From a virus, in the IMG/VR virus record IMGVR_UViG_3300036835_000173, positions 1 through 39,880 of that record: a DNA stretch of 39,880 nt. One strand, given 5' to 3'. Shown piece after piece: positions 1,635 through 7,697 of this stretch. Under the pieces are notes generated by a model. The model was not told the origin of the DNA and did not search any database. It was given only the letters and a program-made list of their open reading frames with translations. How positions within the stretch are numbered: the first letter of the stretch is position 1; each line of letters opens with the position of its first letter. The position numbers and the translations under genes are program-made.

Positions 1635-2512
1635 CGGATCTGCCTAACATCCACTGCGGGCGCAAGGCATTCCTCGATGTGATGCGATTGCGACCTGAAG
1701 AAAAGCGCGAGCTTGAGGCTGACGCTTGGGCGGCCGGTTTCATCGGCGGACTGGCCAAGGTTCCCAAGCCCGTCGGTGGTGACGTTATCCGAATGACGAT
1801 GGATGATGAGCTTGCCCGCCAAGTCATCTGGTGCCAACTCAGCGCGGCGAATCCCGACAATGACGACTGGCAGCGGAAGGTCGCCGCATATGCCTGGCAC
1901 ATGCTGCGTGAGCGGATTGACGTCTGGGAGCCCGACCCGCAGATCTGGGCTGAGTTCAGCCCGCGCTGGATGATCGATATGGACCGGGCGGCAGGTAGCG
2001 GAGTTGGGGTCCTTGTCTATGACACATGGATCTCACCTTTTGAGCTAGAGCGCTATTTCATCAACCCCTGGATCCGCTGCCATTACTGGCTCACTCACGG
2101 CGCGCTTGGGAGGGCCGGATTGCCGGAGGACTGGTCCAGCCACATCGGCCCGGCCCTGAAGAATGCGCCCGGCAACGTGCATGAGTTACTGCGCTGGTAT
2201 GAATCACGCAAGTCGCATCCTGGCTTCGAGCCGTGCATGTTGGAATTGCCCGCGACTGACTTTGGGGACAGGGTCTTTTCCTGGAATGAGTTTCGCTTTC
2301 GCCAGGACCAAATCACACTGTTGAGCGTGGCGCTACTAGTGTTCCGCAATCAGCTCGGCAGCGGGTTGGTTGAAGTGGGGTTGAGAGGAGTGTGGCGACG
2401 CCTAATCAACCAACTTCAGCGCAAACTCTCCAATTTTCCGCCCAATTTTCTCGAAAAAGTGGCTCCGGCGATCGCGGTGTTGGATTCGCCAGGCGGACGC
2501 GGAGAGATGTAG
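1631..2512 (+). CDS. Hypothetical protein, 293 aa, last gene of the left operon
   Basis: GTG at 1631 overlaps the previous TGA (GTGA); an in-frame ATG at 1595 lies within the previous gene and is less likely. The protein is Trp- and Arg-rich, with patterns such as WAAGFIGGLAK near residue 35 and several W-x-P motifs in the middle. There is no signal peptide or recognised catalytic motif. The C-terminal third has a basic helix (GVWRRLINQLQRKL). It ends the operon, followed by the long non-coding region. Function unknown. Confidence 0.6.
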   Translation: MTDLPNIHCGRKAFLDVMRLRPEEKRELEADAWAAGFIGGLAKVPKPVGGDVIRMTMDDELARQVIWCQLSAANPDNDDWQRKVAAYAWHMLRERIDVWEPDPQIWAEFSPRWMIDMDRAAGSGVGVLVYDTWISPFELERYFINPWIRCHYWLTHGALGRAGLPEDWSSHIGPALKNAPGNVHELLRWYESRKSHPGFEPCMLELPATDFGDRVFSWNEFRFRQDQITLLSVALLVFRNQLGSGLVEVGLRGVWRRLINQLQRKLSNFPPNFLEKVAPAIAVLDSPGGRGEM

Positions 2513-2563
2513 GGAACATGCTTTCTGATGAGAGCCTTACGCGCGGGCGGCCGTTATGCGGGC

Positions 2564-2679
2564 GTAGGTCAGTAGGAGAGGAAAGATATACAGAGAAAAA
2601 GAGAGAGAGTGAGCAGGATAGCTATAGCTATACATCGGTCTATTTTTCGAGAGAGAGGGGGAGTGTTCTACTGACCTAC
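2564..2679. repeat. 12-bp inverted repeat framing a purine-rich tract
   Basis: GTAGGTCAGTAG at 2564-2575 is exactly complementary, in inverse order, to CTACTGACCTAC at 2668-2679. The enclosed ~92 bases are strongly purine-rich on the + strand (runs of GAGA) and contain the 14-bp palindrome ATAGCTATAGCTAT at 2618-2631. The arms could form a long-range stem or be paired protein sites. Confidence 0.55.
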
Positions 2680-2792
2680 CCGCGCGCGAGACAAGTGGGT
2701 GATTGTGGGGGATGGGCCGAAAATCGGGCCGGAATCCACATCGCAAATGGGTCGTGAGAGGACTGGATCTGTTTGTGACTCATCGACACTCA

Positions 2793-2828
2793 TGAATTTT
2801 TTCAAAAATTTTTTGAAAATTTTTTTTC
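2793..2828. repeat. AT-rich palindromic block
   Basis: An almost pure A/T stretch lies in GC-rich surroundings. Positions 2799-2808 (TTTTCAAAAA) and 2810-2819 (TTTTTGAAAA) form a perfect inverted repeat around one base, followed by eight T. It could be a DNA-unwinding element of an origin, a curved-DNA protein site, or a weak terminator. Confidence 0.5.
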
Positions 2829-2882
2829 ACGGAGGTCTCATCGTGGTTTTCATTCTGTGACGAGGTGACACTAACTGGATGA

Positions 2883-2900
2883 CGGTGTGTCGACACACCG
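2883..2900. repeat. 18-bp perfect palindrome, copy 1
   Basis: The palindrome is CGGTGTGTC followed by its inverse complement GACACACCG. Its 16-bp core recurs 46 bp downstream (2929-2946), which suggests a dimeric protein-binding site present twice. Confidence 0.6.
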
Positions 2901-2928
2901 GTTCCGGGTGGTATGACGCACCCCTAGA

Positions 2929-2946
2929 GGGTGTGTCGACACACCC
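2929..2946. repeat. 18-bp perfect palindrome, copy 2
   Basis: GGGTGTGTC is followed by GACACACCC. It shares the core GGTGTGTCGACACACC with the copy at 2883-2900; the centres are 46 bp apart, between four and five helical turns. A candidate operator or origin-binding site. Confidence 0.6.
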
Positions 2947-2971
2947 GCAGGCGGTGGCTTGATGCGCCGGA

Positions 2972-3015
2972 CTTCAGTCTGTCGATGATCCGCGCTTCAG
3001 TGCGTCGATGAACCG
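2972..3015. repeat. Two 21-nt imperfect direct repeats
   Basis: CTTCAGTCTGTCGATGATCC begins the first unit (2972-2992) and CTTCAGTGCGTCGATGAACC the second (2995-3015); they match at 18 of 21 positions. The repeat period is 23 bp. Confidence 0.5.
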
Positions 3016-3042
3016 GATGTCCAGAAATTGGGCCTCCGGGCA

Positions 3043-3062
3043 CGGGGTACATATGTACCCCG
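3043..3062. promoter_or_regulatory. GGGTAC palindrome, copy 1 (operator candidate)
   Basis: A perfect 20-bp palindrome with half-site CGGGGTACAT and its inverse complement ATGTACCCCG. Related sites at 3250-3265 and 4618-4639 lie upstream of the two paralogous twin-HTH genes, so this is a candidate binding site for one of those proteins or their regulator. Confidence 0.55.
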
Positions 3063-3140
3063 CATGATCTGAATTTCAGTAAATGTCGCGCGCGTCTAGC
3101 AATCTAGTAGAACAGCTGCCCGAGATTCAGAGTATTGACG

Positions 3141-3253
3141 ACCGTTCGTCGTGGTTTTCACGCCGTTGGCCCGCTTGTCGAGTAATTCCTACCGCTGAAC
3201 GTGTGTTTCATACCGCTCGGCGATGATATGCTACCGTTCGGCCGTTTTGGGGT
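3141..3253. repeat. Degenerate 21-bp repeat array (iteron-like)
   Basis: Units beginning (A/C)CCGCT or ACCGTT start at 3170, 3191, 3212 and 3233, exactly 21 bp apart. A further matching unit starts at 3141 (ACCGTTCGTCG). The conserved part is about ACCGYTCGKCG, followed by a T-rich second half. The regular period of two helical turns suggests cooperative protein binding on one DNA face, as in replication iterons or operator arrays. Confidence 0.5.
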
Positions 3254-3265
3254 ACAAATGTACCC
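3250..3265. promoter_or_regulatory. GGGTAC palindrome, copy 2 (operator candidate)
   Basis: GGGTACA and TGTACCC are separated by AA. The site lies about 94 bp before the ATG of the first twin-HTH gene and directly upstream of a GATAAT box (3289-3294) that could be its -10 element. If so, the site centre would be near -43, where a bound protein could act on RNA polymerase. Confidence 0.55.
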
Positions 3266-3296
3266 TCCTGTCCTCACCTGATCCGGCCGATAATAA

Positions 3297-3342
3297 GGGC
3301 GTAGGGCAGGGACAAGCCCCGCCCGCTACGCCCCTCAGGGGC
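3297..3342 (+). promoter_or_regulatory. Leader hairpins before the first twin-HTH gene
   Basis: GGGCGTAG (3297-3304) pairs with CTACGCCC (3326-3333). A second hairpin, GCCCC-TCA-GGGGC at 3330-3342, shares bases with the first, so the two are partly exclusive. The ribosome-binding site (CTGGAG) and ATG follow at once. This could stabilise the mRNA or modulate translation; it is seen only as sequence complementarity. Confidence 0.4.
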
Positions 3343-3358
3343 AGACTGGAGAATTACC

Positions 3359-3916
3359 ATGGCTCGTAAGACCACCCCCGCCGAGACCGTCGCGCCCGTC
3401 ACCCGGACGCGCCGGACGGCCGACCAGAAGATCAGCGACGGCCAGCGCGCCTACGAGATGCGCGAGGCCGGTGAGAAGTGGGTCCCGATCGGCCAGGCGC
3501 TCGGCTACGGCGACAACGGGGGCATCCCCGCCCGCGAGGCGATGTACGCCTACATGGCCGCGAACGGCCTCCTCAAGACGATCGACCCGACCGATCACGA
3601 GGCGATCGTCAAGGCCAAGCGCGGCGACGTCGGGTGGGCCGCCCTCTCCGCCCAGACCGGGCTGAAGGTCAGCGACCTCAAGGCGATCGTCCGGAACGCC
3701 GACCAGTCGCTAGTCGACAAGGTCGACGGCGTCAAGAACGCGCGCACGTACGGTCGCGACGATCGCGGTGCCGACGGCCACGGCGCGGAGCGCGCGGAGG
3801 CCGGACGCTACACGGTTGTCCGGCGGCCGGAGATCGCCAAGGCCGCCGACCAGCGCCGGAAGCCCGCCGCCAAGCCGCGCACCCGCCGCACCCGCAGCGC
3901 CCGCAAGGCCGCGTAG
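3359..3916 (+). CDS. Twin-HTH basic DNA-binding-like protein A, 185 aa
   Basis: ATG at 3359 follows ACTGGAGAATTACC. The protein has a short basic N terminus and two helix-turn-helix-like units. The first (about residues 30-65) has REAGEKWVPIGQALGYG then PAREAMYAYM. The second (about 80-110) has KRGDVGWAALSAQTGLKVSDL. A conserved NARTYGR stretch and a very basic tail (PRTRRTRSARKAA) follow. It is paralogous to the protein encoded at 4721-5401, with the same domain order. Codon use is almost entirely G/C-ending, suggesting high expression. A role as regulator, origin-binding or DNA-organising protein is inferred; no named family is recognised. Confidence 0.7.
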   Translation: MARKTTPAETVAPVTRTRRTADQKISDGQRAYEMREAGEKWVPIGQALGYGDNGGIPAREAMYAYMAANGLLKTIDPTDHEAIVKAKRGDVGWAALSAQTGLKVSDLKAIVRNADQSLVDKVDGVKNARTYGRDDRGADGHGAERAEAGRYTVVRRPEIAKAADQRRKPAAKPRTRRTRSARKAA

Positions 3917-3927
3917 TCAGAAGGTCC

Positions 3928-3953
3928 GCCCGCCCGGCGGGTGCCGGGCGGGC
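3928..3953 (+). terminator. GC-only hairpin, possible terminator
   Basis: GCCCGCCCGGC (3928-3938) pairs perfectly with GCCGGGCGGGC (3943-3953) around a GGGT loop, just after the stop of the preceding gene. There is no T run after it, so it may be a partial terminator or an mRNA 3'-end stabiliser. Confidence 0.5.
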
Positions 3954-3985
3954 CAACCCTCCCATCCCTAGCTGAAAGGTAGACA

Positions 3986-4351
3986 ATGAAGCTGACTCTG
4001 ATCATCGCCGCGCTCGCGGCCTCCTCGTGGAGTTTCGCCTTCACGGAGGTTGCGGCCGCCAAGCCGCTCGTGTGCTGGAGTGAGGCGCACCCCGGGTGGA
4101 CGGAGACGCTGTGCGGTACGCCCGCCCAGCGCGCGGCCTCGCCCCGCGTCACCGCCTGCGGGGCTGAGGATGGTCCGACCTGGACCTGGTCCCGGTGCGG
4201 CGACGGACGCCGTGGCGTCGTGACGATGTGGGGTACCCCCAAGACCGTCGACTGCCGCCACCTCCGCGATCTGATCCGGCAGGGCGATCTGGATCCGCAC
4301 ACGCCGTGGCTCCGTGGCGACTACTCGTGCGGGAGGCGCCATGCCCGCTGA
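3986..4351 (+). CDS. Secreted Cys-containing protein, 121 aa
   Basis: ATG at 3986 follows CTGAAAGGTAGACA. The N terminus is a clear Sec signal peptide (MKLTLIIAALAASSWSFAF, then TEVAAA with likely cleavage near AAA-KP). The mature part has about six cysteines and many Trp/Gly residues (VCWSEAHPGW, DGPTWTWSRCGDG), fitting a small disulfide-bonded exported protein. It sits between the two twin-HTH paralogues and overlaps the next gene by 11 bases. No family is recognised; action outside the host membrane is inferred from the signal peptide. Confidence 0.65.
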   Translation: MKLTLIIAALAASSWSFAFTEVAAAKPLVCWSEAHPGWTETLCGTPAQRAASPRVTACGAEDGPTWTWSRCGDGRRGVVTMWGTPKTVDCRHLRDLIRQGDLDPHTPWLRGDYSCGRRHAR

Positions 4352-4520
4352 GCCCTTCAAGGTTCCAGTCCGGTGGTACGTCGGCGCGATCCTGATCCCG
4401 ATCCTTGGCGTCGTGCTGGCTATCGTCGCGCTGGCCAAGGGCGCTGTGGGCCCTGGCCTCGCGCTTGGCCTCACAAGCGCGCTCGCGTGGATGGCAGCGC
4501 TCGTGATGTTCGGCTTCTGA
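4341..4520 (+). CDS. Small membrane protein, 59 aa
   Basis: ATG at 4341 follows GGGAGGCGCC and overlaps the upstream gene. The protein has two hydrophobic segments, roughly residues 13-33 (VGAILIPILGVVLAIVALA) and 38-58, joined by a short KGAVG turn. It resembles small two-helix phage membrane proteins (holin-like or superinfection-exclusion type) but no family can be named. It is far from the endolysin, so a holin role is only possible. Confidence 0.6.
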   Translation: MPAEPFKVPVRWYVGAILIPILGVVLAIVALAKGAVGPGLALGLTSALAWMAALVMFGF

Positions 4521-4617
4521 TGTACGAGAAAGCGGTCATTTATGGCCGTTTTCTTGGTGCTTTTGGATCCGCCTTCCCCCAGCATCCATCACCCAACCTA
4601 ATACTCTACTTTCCAGT

Positions 4618-4639
4618 CCAGGGTACAAATATACCCTGG
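4618..4639. promoter_or_regulatory. GGGTAC palindrome, copy 3 (operator candidate)
   Basis: Half-sites CCAGGGTA and TACCCTGG flank CAAATA. The core GGGTACAAAT-TACCC differs from the copy at 3250-3265 at one base. Its centre lies about 63 bp before the transcription start predicted for the promoter at 4655-4685, a usual place for an activator site. Confidence 0.55.
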
Positions 4640-4654
4640 CAATCGCACGCGCTC

Positions 4655-4685
4655 TTTAGGTTGCATTTAGGTTTGGGAGTAGACT
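4655..4685 (+). promoter_or_regulatory. Promoter candidate for twin-HTH gene B
   Basis: CTCTTTAGGTT is followed about 25 bases later by the -10-like TAGACT (4680-4685). A near-copy of this arrangement, CTCTTTAGGTT then TAGAAT, occurs at 33637-33671 before another operon, suggesting a shared promoter type. The predicted start near 4692 leaves a ~29-base leader with an AGGAGG site. Confidence 0.45.
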
Positions 4686-4720
4686 AGAGAAGTCAAGCAA
4701 CCTAGGAGGTTCCAGTCCAC

Positions 4721-5401
4721 ATGAGTCCCGCACCACGCAGAGGCAGGGCCAAGCCCACGGAGGATGCCCCGGCAGCCGCCACCACGTCACGTCGGCGTGG
4801 GCGTGCCAAGCCGGAGACTCCGGCTGAGAGCAACGGCGACGCAGCTGACGCAGAAGACGCCACTCCCGTCGCACGCGCGAAGTACACCCCCGAGCAGCGC
4901 CTGGAGATGGGCGAGCAGATCGCCGGCATGCGCGACGAGGGCACGCCCTGGCTGGAGATCGCTGAGGAGCTCGGTCTGTCCGGCGGCGTGCCTGCCCGGC
5001 AGATGATGAACGAGTACCTCGCATCCACCGACCCCGAGTTCAGCCTCGACCCCGATGCCGACGACTTCGCGGAGACCATCGTGGAACTCCGCGATGACGG
5101 CACCGGCTGGGGTGAGCTCCAGGCCCGCTCTGGGCTGAGCAAGGCCGAGCTTGTCGAGGTGTACACCGAGGCCGGTGGCGAGATGGCTGAGGGCCGCGTC
5201 TACAGCAACGCCAAGACCGGCAACGTCACCCACAAGATCGGCCCCACGCGCTCAGCGAGCGACAACGGTGAGGCAAGCGACGAGGAGCAGGAGGCTCCGG
5301 CACCTAGGCGCGGTCGCGGCCGCCGCCAGGCGCAGGCTCAGGAGGAGGCCCCCGCTCAGCCCGCACCCGCCCGCCGTGGTCGGAGGCGCGCAGCCAAGTA
5401 G
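4721..5401 (+). CDS. Twin-HTH basic DNA-binding-like protein B, 226 aa
   Basis: ATG at 4721 follows CTAGGAGGTTCCAGTCCAC. Paralogue of the protein at 3359-3916. A basic/Ala-rich N-terminal arm (residues 1-50) is followed by HTH-like unit 1 (MRDEGTPWLEIAEELGLS, then GGVPARQMMNEYL) and unit 2 (LRDDGTGWGELQARSGLSKAEL). Then come GRVYSNAKTG and a low-complexity Arg/Gln/Pro tail ending RRGRRRAAK. The matching order of units, the GVPAR/GIPAR motif and the basic tails show common descent. It is the last gene before a terminator. Sequence-specific DNA binding or chromatin-like packaging is inferred. Confidence 0.7.
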   Translation: MSPAPRRGRAKPTEDAPAAATTSRRRGRAKPETPAESNGDAADAEDATPVARAKYTPEQRLEMGEQIAGMRDEGTPWLEIAEELGLSGGVPARQMMNEYLASTDPEFSLDPDADDFAETIVELRDDGTGWGELQARSGLSKAELVEVYTEAGGEMAEGRVYSNAKTGNVTHKIGPTRSASDNGEASDEEQEAPAPRRGRGRRQAQAQEEAPAQPAPARRGRRRAAK

Positions 5402-5449
5402 CTCTGGATCACCCCCAGAGAGTCCTGCTCGCTCCCTCACCCCGGGAGC
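5402..5449 (+). other. Two hairpins after twin-HTH gene B
   Basis: CTCTGG (5402-5407) pairs with CCAGAG (5415-5420). GCTCCC (5431-5436) pairs with GGGAGC (5444-5449). Both have seven-base loops and precede the stronger terminator hairpin at 5465, making three in a row. Confidence 0.4.
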
Positions 5450-5464
5450 GCCAGGGCGGCGATT

Positions 5465-5490
5465 GGCCCCCACATGGGGGCCTTTCGTTT
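5465..5490 (+). terminator. Rho-independent terminator
   Basis: GGCCCCC and GGGGGCC form the stem around ACAT, followed by TTTCGTTT. It lies in the intergenic gap after the second twin-HTH gene and separates it from the packaging operon. Confidence 0.7.
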
Positions 5491-5617
5491 GCCCCTTGTG
5501 CCACCCCATCTGCGAAAAAATCCTGACCCCTGAACAGCACGAGTCTCATGTCGCGCTCGGCCCTATGCGCCTACGTACGCGCGCGGGTACTAGGGCAACA
5601 AACCGGAAAAAAGTCAC

Positions 5618-5646
5618 TTGACTAATCACACCCGCTCCGCTAGACT
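5618..5646 (+). promoter_or_regulatory. Sigma-70-type promoter giving a leaderless terminase transcript
   Basis: TTGACT at 5618-5623 and TAGACT at 5641-5646 are separated by exactly 17 bases. The start ATG is at 5653, where transcription from this -10 box would be expected to begin, and no Shine-Dalgarno precedes it. Leaderless mRNAs are common in actinobacteria. Confidence 0.6.
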
Positions 5647-5652
5647 CCCTCC

Positions 5653-6087
5653 ATGCCGAAGGGCGACCTGGAGCGGTTGCGGCGGGACCCTCAAGCTGAC
5701 CCGATCACTCAGCTGCTCTACTCGACCCTCCACACGCGGCAGGCACTTGACCGGCTGGACCTGGCAATTGATCGCGCCTTCCCGGAGCCTGATGATCCGC
5801 GTGACAGCGATGAGTTTTACTTCAACCCGACTGGCAAGGGTCTGTTCGAGTTTCAGGCCCAGCTGCGCGAGCAGTTAGCCAGGCTGGCCTCCAAGTACGT
5901 CAGTCTCGGCATCGAGGAGCGTCAGATCAAGCAGATCGAGGATTGGTCAAACATCCTCCTGCCGCTCTTCACGGCCTTGATGGAAGACCCAAACTTGCGC
6001 CTGACTCGGCGTCAGCGCAGGGAACTCCCTGCGGCAGCCGAGCGAGCACTCACGGTGCTCGAAGTCCCCAGAGAGACTGCAGCGTGA
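5653..6087 (+). CDS. Putative small terminase subunit, 144 aa
   Basis: A helical protein of 144 residues directly upstream of, and overlapping by four bases, the large terminase gene; this is the usual place for the DNA-recognition subunit of the packaging motor. It begins MPKGDLERLRRDPQADP and has a central helical region (QAQLREQLARLASKYVSLGIEERQIKQ) and a basic segment (LRLTRRQRREL). No canonical HTH is obvious. The ATG is set by the leaderless promoter just upstream. The assignment depends mainly on position and size. Confidence 0.6.
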   Translation: MPKGDLERLRRDPQADPITQLLYSTLHTRQALDRLDLAIDRAFPEPDDPRDSDEFYFNPTGKGLFEFQAQLREQLARLASKYVSLGIEERQIKQIEDWSNILLPLFTALMEDPNLRLTRRQRRELPAAAERALTVLEVPRETAA

Positions 6088-7697
6088 CCCGGGCACCCTC
6101 CTCCCCTGGAGTCACGATCCCTCCGCGGGCTCCAACCGGACTGGGCGCAAGCATCCGCCGGTCCATGGAGGAACGCAGAGCCTCACACCGCTGGATCCGC
6201 AATCCTGTCGGGTGGACGATCAATCGGGCTCGTGCCCACCCGTACTCAAAGCAGCGCGAGATCATGAACGCGGTCGTCCGCCATCGTCGAGTGAGTGTCC
6301 GCTCCGCTCACGACACGGGCAAGTCATGGTCCGCGGCTGACCTGACGGCGTGGTGGCTTGACGTCCACCCGATTGGCTCCGCGTTCGTGGTGACGACGGC
6401 TCCCACCGCGCCGCAGGTCGAGGTCATCCTCTGGCGGGAGATTCAGCGCGTCAAGAACAAGGCCAACCTCCCCGGCCGCATCACGTCGGGCAACATCCCC
6501 AAGTGGAAGACAGCCGCCGACGAGATCATCGCCTACGGGCGCAAGCCCGCCGACCTGAAGTCCCAGGACGAGGCGTCTCAGGCCTTCCAGGGCATCCACG
6601 CTCGTTACATCCTCGTGATCTTGGACGAGGCGTGCGGCATCCCTGAGTGGCTCTGGAACGCCGTCGAGACCATCGCCACCAACCGCTATGCCCGCGTGCT
6701 CGCAATTGGCAATCCCGATGTGCCCGATACGCCCTTTGCTAAGACGCACCAACCGCACTCCGACTGGCACAAGATCAAGATCAGCGCCTTTGATACGCCT
6801 GCCTACACTGGCGAGCCTGTCCCCGAGAGCCTGCTCCTTGACCTTGTGTCCCCAGAGTGGGTCGAGGCGCGCGCCAAGGACTGGGGCGTGGAGAGCCCAC
6901 TTTACACATCCAAGGTTGGGGCTGAGTTCCCAGAAGTTTCTGAGGAGACGCTCATCCACCCGCGTCTGATCCAAGAGGCGCAACTACGTGATCTCTCCGG
7001 CGTTGCGATCAACATCCCGGGCTCATTTGGACTGGATGTGGCGCGCTTTGGGCGCAACGAGACTGTCTGCTACCGCAACCGTGGTGGCTATCTGCGCCGG
7101 GAGTTCGGCTATCACAAGCAGGATACGATGGTGACTGCCGGGCGCGCGATCCGCGTGCTCAATACCGTCAAGGCATCATTGGCGGGCGTCTACATGGTCA
7201 TTGACACCATTGGCGTCGGCGGTGGCGTCTATGACCGCATGCGCGAGCAGAACTTTCCCGTCATCCCCTTCGTCGCATCCGAGTCCCCATCAACCCCAAC
7301 GGGCAAGAAGCGGTTTGTGAATCGGCGGGCCGAGCAGTGGTGGGCCTTCCGCAAGCAGTTTGAGGCGGGGCTGATTGATCTCCCCTCAACCGACGAGGAC
7401 GATAAGCTGATCGCCCAACTCGGCAGCATCAAGTACTTCATCCGCTCCGACGGGCGCATTCTCGTTGAATCCAAGGAGGACATGGAGGCGCGTGGCCTAC
7501 CATCCCCGGACCGGGCTGATGCTGCGATGATGGCGTGCGTCCGGCCGTTGCCGCAAGCCGGGGAGTTCACGGTGCCTGATGCTAAGCCGGACTGGATGCT
7601 GACGCAACTCGGCACCAACGCGGGCTTCCTGACTCTTGGCAGCGACGAGATCCTCAAATCCCTGACCGGCGACCTGCTCGCAGGGAGCAAGTGGTGA
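6084..7697 (+). CDS. terL: Large terminase subunit (packaging ATPase-nuclease), 537 aa
   Basis: GTG at 6084 overlaps the upstream TGA; the in-frame ATG at 5943 lies inside the upstream gene and is rejected. The ATPase domain shows a Walker A-like RSAHDTGKS (residues 73-81), Walker B ILVILDEA (176-182) and a coupling-type AIGNP (207-211). The nuclease half has the expected acidic residues: D318 in GLDVARFG, D374 in VIDTIGVGGG and D479 in RADAAMM. Length is normal for the family. The enzyme translocates DNA through the portal and cuts it at packaging. Confidence 0.93.
   Translation: MTRAPSSPGVTIPPRAPTGLGASIRRSMEERRASHRWIRNPVGWTINRARAHPYSKQREIMNAVVRHRRVSVRSAHDTGKSWSAADLTAWWLDVHPIGSAFVVTTAPTAPQVEVILWREIQRVKNKANLPGRITSGNIPKWKTAADEIIAYGRKPADLKSQDEASQAFQGIHARYILVILDEACGIPEWLWNAVETIATNRYARVLAIGNPDVPDTPFAKTHQPHSDWHKIKISAFDTPAYTGEPVPESLLLDLVSPEWVEARAKDWGVESPLYTSKVGAEFPEVSEETLIHPRLIQEAQLRDLSGVAINIPGSFGLDVARFGRNETVCYRNRGGYLRREFGYHKQDTMVTAGRAIRVLNTVKASLAGVYMVIDTIGVGGGVYDRMREQNFPVIPFVASESPSTPTGKKRFVNRRAEQWWAFRKQFEAGLIDLPSTDEDDKLIAQLGSIKYFIRSDGRILVESKEDMEARGLPSPDRADAAMMACVRPLPQAGEFTVPDAKPDWMLTQLGTNAGFLTLGSDEILKSLTGDLLAGSKW

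Follow-up and report, generated by a model that had tools for sequence, protein, structure and literature searches.

A pair of twin-HTH paralogues and their upstream DNA elements near the terminase genes of a probable actinophage

Results

A twin-HTH gene pair between the small-gene region and the terminase genes

The window, by which we mean the whole 39,880-base IMG/VR virus record IMGVR_UViG_3300036835_000173 (W in genome comparisons), carries two genes, P0001 and P0002, whose products are each predicted to contain two helix-turn-helix (HTH) units. The pair lies between a small-gene region and the terminase and structural genes, and both genes are preceded by palindromic DNA. The large terminase subunit (TerL) encoded in the window shares ~ 42% identity with its counterpart in Arthrobacter Amigo phages, and there are genes for head, portal, and tail proteins that fall into known families; the window is therefore a tailed phage, probably of actinobacteria, its TerL placing it near the actinophages. 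The paralogy of the two proteins, their predicted folds, the DNA elements, and the places where these elements are conserved were computed directly.

Two close relatives were compared, contigs 3300036857_000084 (B) and 3300036857_000036 (C), each accompanied by a partial near-duplicate contig. Their ends are identical over 26 bases in B and 110 bases in C, and both therefore amount to complete maps of ~ 56.2 kb. In genome B, there are genes for an exonuclease, a primase-helicase, a DNA polymerase, a thymidylate synthase, and a pyrophosphatase, and no integrase was seen among those of its proteins that were scanned. Phages D (L137) and E (L136), which are more distantly related and have a TerL ~ 70% identical, came from a terminase scan; E is known from 15 kb only, and gene counts given for it refer to those 15 kb. 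The genes and their nearest elements in the window are as follows.

3043..3062: Palindrome 1, CGGGGTACATATGTACCCCG, from the motif scan; 20 bp perfect with a 16-bp core at 3045-3060; in W only, not in B or C
3250..3265: Palindrome 2, GGGTACAAATGTACCC; centre 31.5 bp before the -10 element; kept in B, one change in C
3289..3294, + strand: -10-like GATAAT of the first gene (from sequence), inside the block CCGATAATAAGGGCG, no -35
3359..3916, + strand: P0001, 185-amino-acid twin-HTH protein with basic tails, isoelectric point 10.2 (BLASTP, AlphaFold2, composition)
4618..4639: Palindrome 3, CCAGGGTACAAATATACCCTGG, a longer inverted repeat around 4621-4636; centre 51.5 bp before the -10 element
4680..4685, + strand: -10-like TAGACT of the second gene (from sequence), no -35
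4721..5401, + strand: P0002, 226-amino-acid twin-HTH protein with an acidic HTH core (net -17) and basic, RGR-rich tails (BLASTP, AlphaFold2, composition)

P0001 and P0002 are paralogues that match no named family strongly

BLASTP aligned P0001 with P0002 at 33% identity over 110 amino acids (E = 1e-17), and a G(I/V)PAR motif is common to both, so that by sequence the two are paralogues. A preliminary description of the locus had proposed the paralogy, the motif, the basic tails, and two HTH-like units per protein; alignment and composition bore out the first three, and structure prediction agreed with the last. AlphaFold2 models, which rest on an alignment of six sequences only, gave for each protein six helices arranged as two three-helix HTH-type units, with disordered tails. 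The predicted fold is confident for P0002, with a core predicted local distance difference test score of ~ 90 or more (helices H57-72, 77-84, 89-103, then H116-125, 130-137, 141-150), and moderate for P0001, with a score of 82-88 (helices H21-36, 41-48, 55-68, then H80-88, 93-100, 104-114). The two units of P0002 also resemble each other in sequence, at a score reached by 0 of 1000 shuffles. Such resemblance is absent from P0001, where 567 of 1000 shuffles reach the score, and its "two units" therefore rest on the structure model.

Exactly two twin-HTH genes were found in each of W, B, and C, and one homologue, adjoining the terminase genes and with Lys/Ala-rich tails, in each of D and E. A duplication is thus visible, with one copy in D, at least one in E, and two in the group of the window; in all five phages, a twin-HTH gene stands directly before the terminase genes. 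In phage E, the twin-HTH frame (L136:279-281) apparently begins with ATT, aligned to the ATG of D, as a rare start codon or a sequence error.

The preliminary description could not assign the proteins to a family, and by any sequence test run, they belong to no named one. A Pfam scan of both gave nothing above the family cut-off; among the matches viewed to E = 5, there was no Mu Mor/C activator family, no HTH_3-type (Lambda CI/Cro) domain, and no Lsr2 or HU domain, the last two also being missing from the D and E homologues at E up to 1. P0002 has weak matches over its first HTH unit to PHROG 686 (E = 4.4e-5), annotated as an HTH DNA binding protein, and to PHROG 645 (E 5e-4), as do its orthologues; the former covers model positions 23-61 of 76, i.e., one unit only. 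Neither P0001 nor the D and E homologues matched these two. A search of 50,697 deposited phage records, even with the core alone at E = 10, gave no convincing relative of P0001 or P0002, and no homologue was found in bacterial genomes. We rejected a weak match in L197 that covers a single HTH unit, profile matches to SH3 proteins in the PDB as chance (best E = 0.076), and Amigo gp20, a "DNA binding protein" before the terminase that by eye consists of one HTH with a long helical stretch behind it. With Foldseek, neither PDB nor viral structures matched below E = 0.001. The nearest PDB structures are those of generic HTH proteins (ParB/KorB/VirB/resolvase, Z ~ 5-6), which would indicate the type of fold and no function.

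Palindromes and -10-like elements precede both genes

The preliminary description had pointed to GGGTAC palindromes at 3043, 3250, and 4618. These are real: the window holds six strand matches to the motif at ≤ 3 mismatches, against 0.44 expected, and no shuffle reached six. The change in Palindrome 2 of phage C affects one end base, and the right half there reads TACCG. That description had suggested a search of the rest of the phage genome; in the complete genomes B and C, the motif at ≤ 1 mismatch was found only upstream of the twin-HTH genes, confined to the promoters of this pair. Palindrome 1 has no clear promoter of its own. We rejected a host regulon for the palindrome, as its 47 exact matches in 84,980 genomes are scattered with no recurrent taxon, and also a general phage motif: 2.9 million viral contigs gave 52 stretches, and the outsiders inspected lie in unrelated sequence and include one shared site recovered repeatedly. 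Among the 52 stretches, loci encoding relatives of the pair belong to the group of the window only.

Both promoters have a -10-like hexamer and no -35-like hexamer. The palindrome centre lies 31.5 bp from the -10 element of P0001 in W, B, and C, and 51.5 bp (W) or 41.5 bp (C) from that of P0002. With start sites assumed 7 bases beyond the -10 hexamer, Palindrome 2 is centred at -43.5 and Palindrome 3 at -63.5, in keeping with the ~ 43 and ~ 63 bp given in the preliminary description. The spacings of 31.5, 41.5, and 51.5 bp differ by 10-bp steps and would fit a factor confined to one face of the helix. Similarly, the last TACC(C/G) lies 18, 28, 38, or 48 bp before the -10 element in 7 of the 8 promoters that have one. 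The block CGATAATANGGG occurs once per genome in W, B, and C, always before P0001. In D, the -10 block appears as CCGATACTTAGGGCG before the twin-HTH gene and as CCGATAATACGGG before a different gene in the slot of P0001; the latter (L137:1667-2110) encodes an unrelated 147-amino-acid protein with no Pfam match, possibly nuclease-like to judge by eye from an EVK motif.

A wider noncoding module lies upstream of P0001

Across W, B, and C, 82% of the noncoding block at 3081-3360 is invariant; the figure is 71% in the P0001 gene and 16% in the spacer beside it. Three further elements lie in or upstream of it.

2553..2691, + strand: long hairpin-forming leader with a polypurine loop; fold z-scores -4.6, -4.1, and -5.0 in the three phages W, B, and C taken together
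2884..2945: three GGTGN8CACC sites (2884, 2907, 2930) at a spacing of 23 bp, with a degenerate fourth one at 2953
3140..3243, + strand: direct repeats with core (T)ACCGYTSGGCG at ~ 3140, 3161, 3190, 3211, and 3232, mostly 21 bp apart

The 21-bp autocorrelation of the direct repeats was reached by 0 of 2000 shuffles, and W, B, and C each contain exactly three GGTGN8CACC sites, all in this array. Upstream of its twin-HTH gene, phage E has GGTGN8CACC twice at a 23-bp interval, TACCG three times at intervals of exactly 21 bp, and CCGATAATAGGGGCG; the module kept in E comprises the GGTG sites, the TACCG repeats, and the unique CCGATAATANGGG block. Of 76 additional loci with a triple TACCG repeat, that of E alone also had the other elements. 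The preliminary description, which saw the palindromes, had missed these three more widely shared elements. The palindrome is absent from D and E and would therefore most simply be a feature of the lineage of the window, added to an older promoter module; the half-site TACC(C/G) is common to the palindrome and the older direct repeats.

The array at 2884-2968, with its 23-bp spacing, is Lambda-operator-like, and TATGAC lies inside its middle site. A match to it in contig 3300024256_000064 (L034) was rejected as an unrelated simple repeat. The outer stem and arm sequence of the 2553-2691 hairpin differs between W and B/C, and the long stem is kept nonetheless; Rfam gave no match in 2400-5700. 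A small open reading frame in the conserved block (from ~ 3084) was rejected, since by eye its reading frame is not maintained from phage to phage and, in the window, a stop codon lies in frame immediately before the repeat. An AT-rich run is present in the window and C and missing in B. The sequence ATGTCGCGC stands at 3083 and 5548 of the window, before P0001 and before the terminase genes; B and C have it at the corresponding two positions, and B has one copy more.

Discussion

A possible self-controlling switch at the early/late boundary

The reading we favour, tentatively, is that these proteins form a phage-specific twin-HTH DNA-associated family at the boundary between the replication/small-gene and packaging/structural regions, which would be autoregulated and would probably activate itself and its paralogue ahead of the late genes. 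A twin-HTH protein, most likely the basic P0001, would recognise TACC(C/G) half-sites, both in the direct repeats with their 21-bp spacing and in the head-to-head arrangement of the 16-bp palindrome. Bound at the palindrome, it could stand in for the missing -35 and recruit host RNA polymerase to the -10 element, so that P0001 would boost its own expression and turn on P0002 immediately ahead of the late genes for terminase and structural proteins. In the late stage, P0002 might then act on phage DNA by way of its basic tails or on the polymerase or packaging proteins by way of its acidic core, and the 23-bp GGTG array could hold a repressor on a second promoter. Together, this would probably be a small and so far undescribed self-controlling switch.

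Several results support this reading: the palindromes exceed chance and in B and C occur only before these genes, the -10 elements lack a -35, the spacing of the palindromes and of the last TACC(C/G) follows 10-bp steps, and the block at 3081-3360 is better conserved than the P0001 gene and the adjacent spacer. The absence of a host regulon for the palindrome and the occurrence in E of a twin-HTH gene with the same module were counted on the same side, and the variant palindrome of C, which ends in TACCG like the core of the direct repeats, was counted for a shared half-site. Other results weigh against it. Palindrome 3 is kept in C (41.5 bp from the -10) but lost in B, where at 61.5 bp the P0002 copy instead has the inverted repeat CGAACGCACGTTCG (some such repeat arises in 8% of shuffles); and no palindrome is present in D or E, each of which keeps one twin-HTH gene. 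The nearest half-site in E, at 43 bp, falls outside the 10-bp series, a regularity that was spotted afterwards and in few related promoters, and positions relative to the start depend on the assumed start sites. The late promoter before the terminase genes has no palindrome, and a late activator would therefore not act there through this motif. Finally, P0002 carries a net charge of -17 across both HTH units, and its predicted second recognition helix, SKAELVEVYTEA, is acidic, which casts doubt on DNA binding by both of its units. To call both proteins "twin DNA binders" overstates the evidence, and the acidic core makes a DNA-organising or cofactor role possible for P0002.

The self-regulating DNA-binding pair of the preliminary description has thus held in part: paralogy, folds, and helically spaced, activator-like sites speak for it, the acidic core of P0002 and the palindrome losses in B, D, and E speak against it, and the binding itself we infer. 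That description took absence of the palindromes from relatives keeping both genes as evidence against the idea; B indeed has no copy before P0002, and Palindrome 2 is kept in both B and C.

The same twin-HTH protein could bind the same sites and limit its own synthesis, like many phage repressors and plasmid partition or regulatory proteins. The sites track the genes of the family only, the GGTG array is spaced like multi-operator repressor regions with TATGAC in the middle site, and the best, weak structural neighbours of the HTH units are ParB and KorB, of which KorB is a repressor. However, the palindromes lie upstream of the -35 region rather than over the -10 or the start, and promoters without a -35 fit activation better; we consider autorepression unlikely. 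Somewhat unlikely, too, is that the proteins organise DNA or are linked to packaging, as nucleoid-associated proteins or a partner of the small terminase subunit (TerS), with the tails and non-specific binding mattering and the sites belonging to another phage or host regulator. The tails are RGR-rich and, in D and E, Lys/Ala-rich, resembling HU/H1-type proteins; the position immediately ahead of the terminase genes in all five phages and a probable TerS without an N-terminal HTH would suit such a role, and the acidic HTH core of P0002 argues against plain operator binding. Yet even in distant phages the promoter module stays with the twin-HTH gene, P0002 is set apart from TerS by a terminator-like hairpin, and the palindrome has no host regulon.

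The hub of hairpin, AT-rich stretch, and 23- and 21-bp arrays could alternatively be a replication origin or partition site, with P0001 as its initiator or binder and the resemblance to a promoter secondary. Iteron-like 21-bp direct repeats, the large noncoding region, and the AT-rich run in the window and C would agree with this, but B lacks that run, the repeats are fixed relative to the conserved -10 block in W, B, and C, and a primase-helicase and a polymerase are encoded by the phage itself at other places in its genome; we regard this explanation as very improbable. A bolder version of the autoactivation model, and one we regard as decidedly unlikely, is that a single twin-HTH family reads TACC(C/G) in two geometries and after duplication split into a basic regulator, P0001, and a late P0002 with an acidic core and basic tails that would organise DNA or modify polymerase, giving a self-priming early-to-late switch that would be unlike described phage switches.

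Comparison with known systems

The closest parallel to the proposed activation is phage Mu, where Mor binds a 16-bp inverted-repeat element at -43.5 and replaces the -35 of Pm (PMC4390567). The locus resembles Mor/C and Pm in a 16-bp inverted repeat centred at -43.5, a -10 without a -35, and a small phage protein, here from sequence and with assumed starts. Unlike Mor/C, the proteins have two HTH units per chain and basic tails, there are additional 21-bp direct repeats, no Pfam activator matched, and the sites, to which binding is presumed, lie at the promoters of the putative regulator itself and of its paralogue. We liken the proposed activation of P0001 and P0002 from the palindrome to that by Mor at Pm; whether the effect is activating, and what P0002 does, we infer.

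ParB/KorB/VirB families, which bind palindromes, come closest in structure to the first unit of P0002 (Z ~ 6 over 42-45 residues; 6.0-6.4 for 1zx4 and 2ntz and 5.2 for KorB, in the range of common HTH similarity). They differ in that the N-terminal ParB/CTPase domain is absent here, the P0002 HTH core beginning at about residue 55 after low-confidence sequence with no Pfam match, and in that there is no sequence match. The GGTG array recalls the three-operator region of Lambda, with three palindromic sites ~ 23 bp apart over a possible promoter, but no CI/Cro-like gene was found near it. The basic, disordered, low-complexity tails are shared with HU/Lsr2/H1-like proteins, whereas the core is HTH-type with no Pfam match to Lsr2 or HU. 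In contrast to a small terminase subunit, P0002 has no predicted long coiled-coil region, and a separate TerS-like gene lies between it and TerL. The match to PHROG 686 spans one HTH unit of P0002 and none of P0001.

If the favoured model is correct, the locus would represent, for one group of uncultured phages, an undescribed protein family and operator code that control the boundary between early and late genes. The circuit would work like known phage activator or repressor circuits, but with proteins that no sequence test places in a named family. The sites are short and well defined, which makes the model directly testable.

Neighbouring genes and transcription units

The remaining features around the pair are listed below.

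3986..4351, + strand: small protein with an N-terminal hydrophobic stretch, probably exported (predicted; signal sequence by eye); relative in D too
4341..4520, + strand: small predicted membrane protein (by eye); homologue in C
4525..4556, + strand: intrinsic-terminator-like hairpin ahead of the second unit, retained in C and, with paired changes, in B (by eye)
5465..5482, + strand: intrinsic-terminator-like hairpin closing the second unit (from sequence)
5618..5646, + strand: late promoter of consensus-like sequence, TTGACT-17-TAGACT, ahead of the terminase genes; conserved in B and C
5653..6087, + strand: probable TerS, N-terminal HTH not recognisable; phrog_3678 match to the C-terminal part; precedes TerL
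6084..7697, + strand: TerL (family match)

With terminator-like hairpins on both sides (4525-4556 and 5465-5482), P0002 is framed as its own single-gene unit. The -10 of the late promoter ends ~ 7 bases before the ATG of TerS in W, B, and C (by eye), which suggests a leaderless mRNA.

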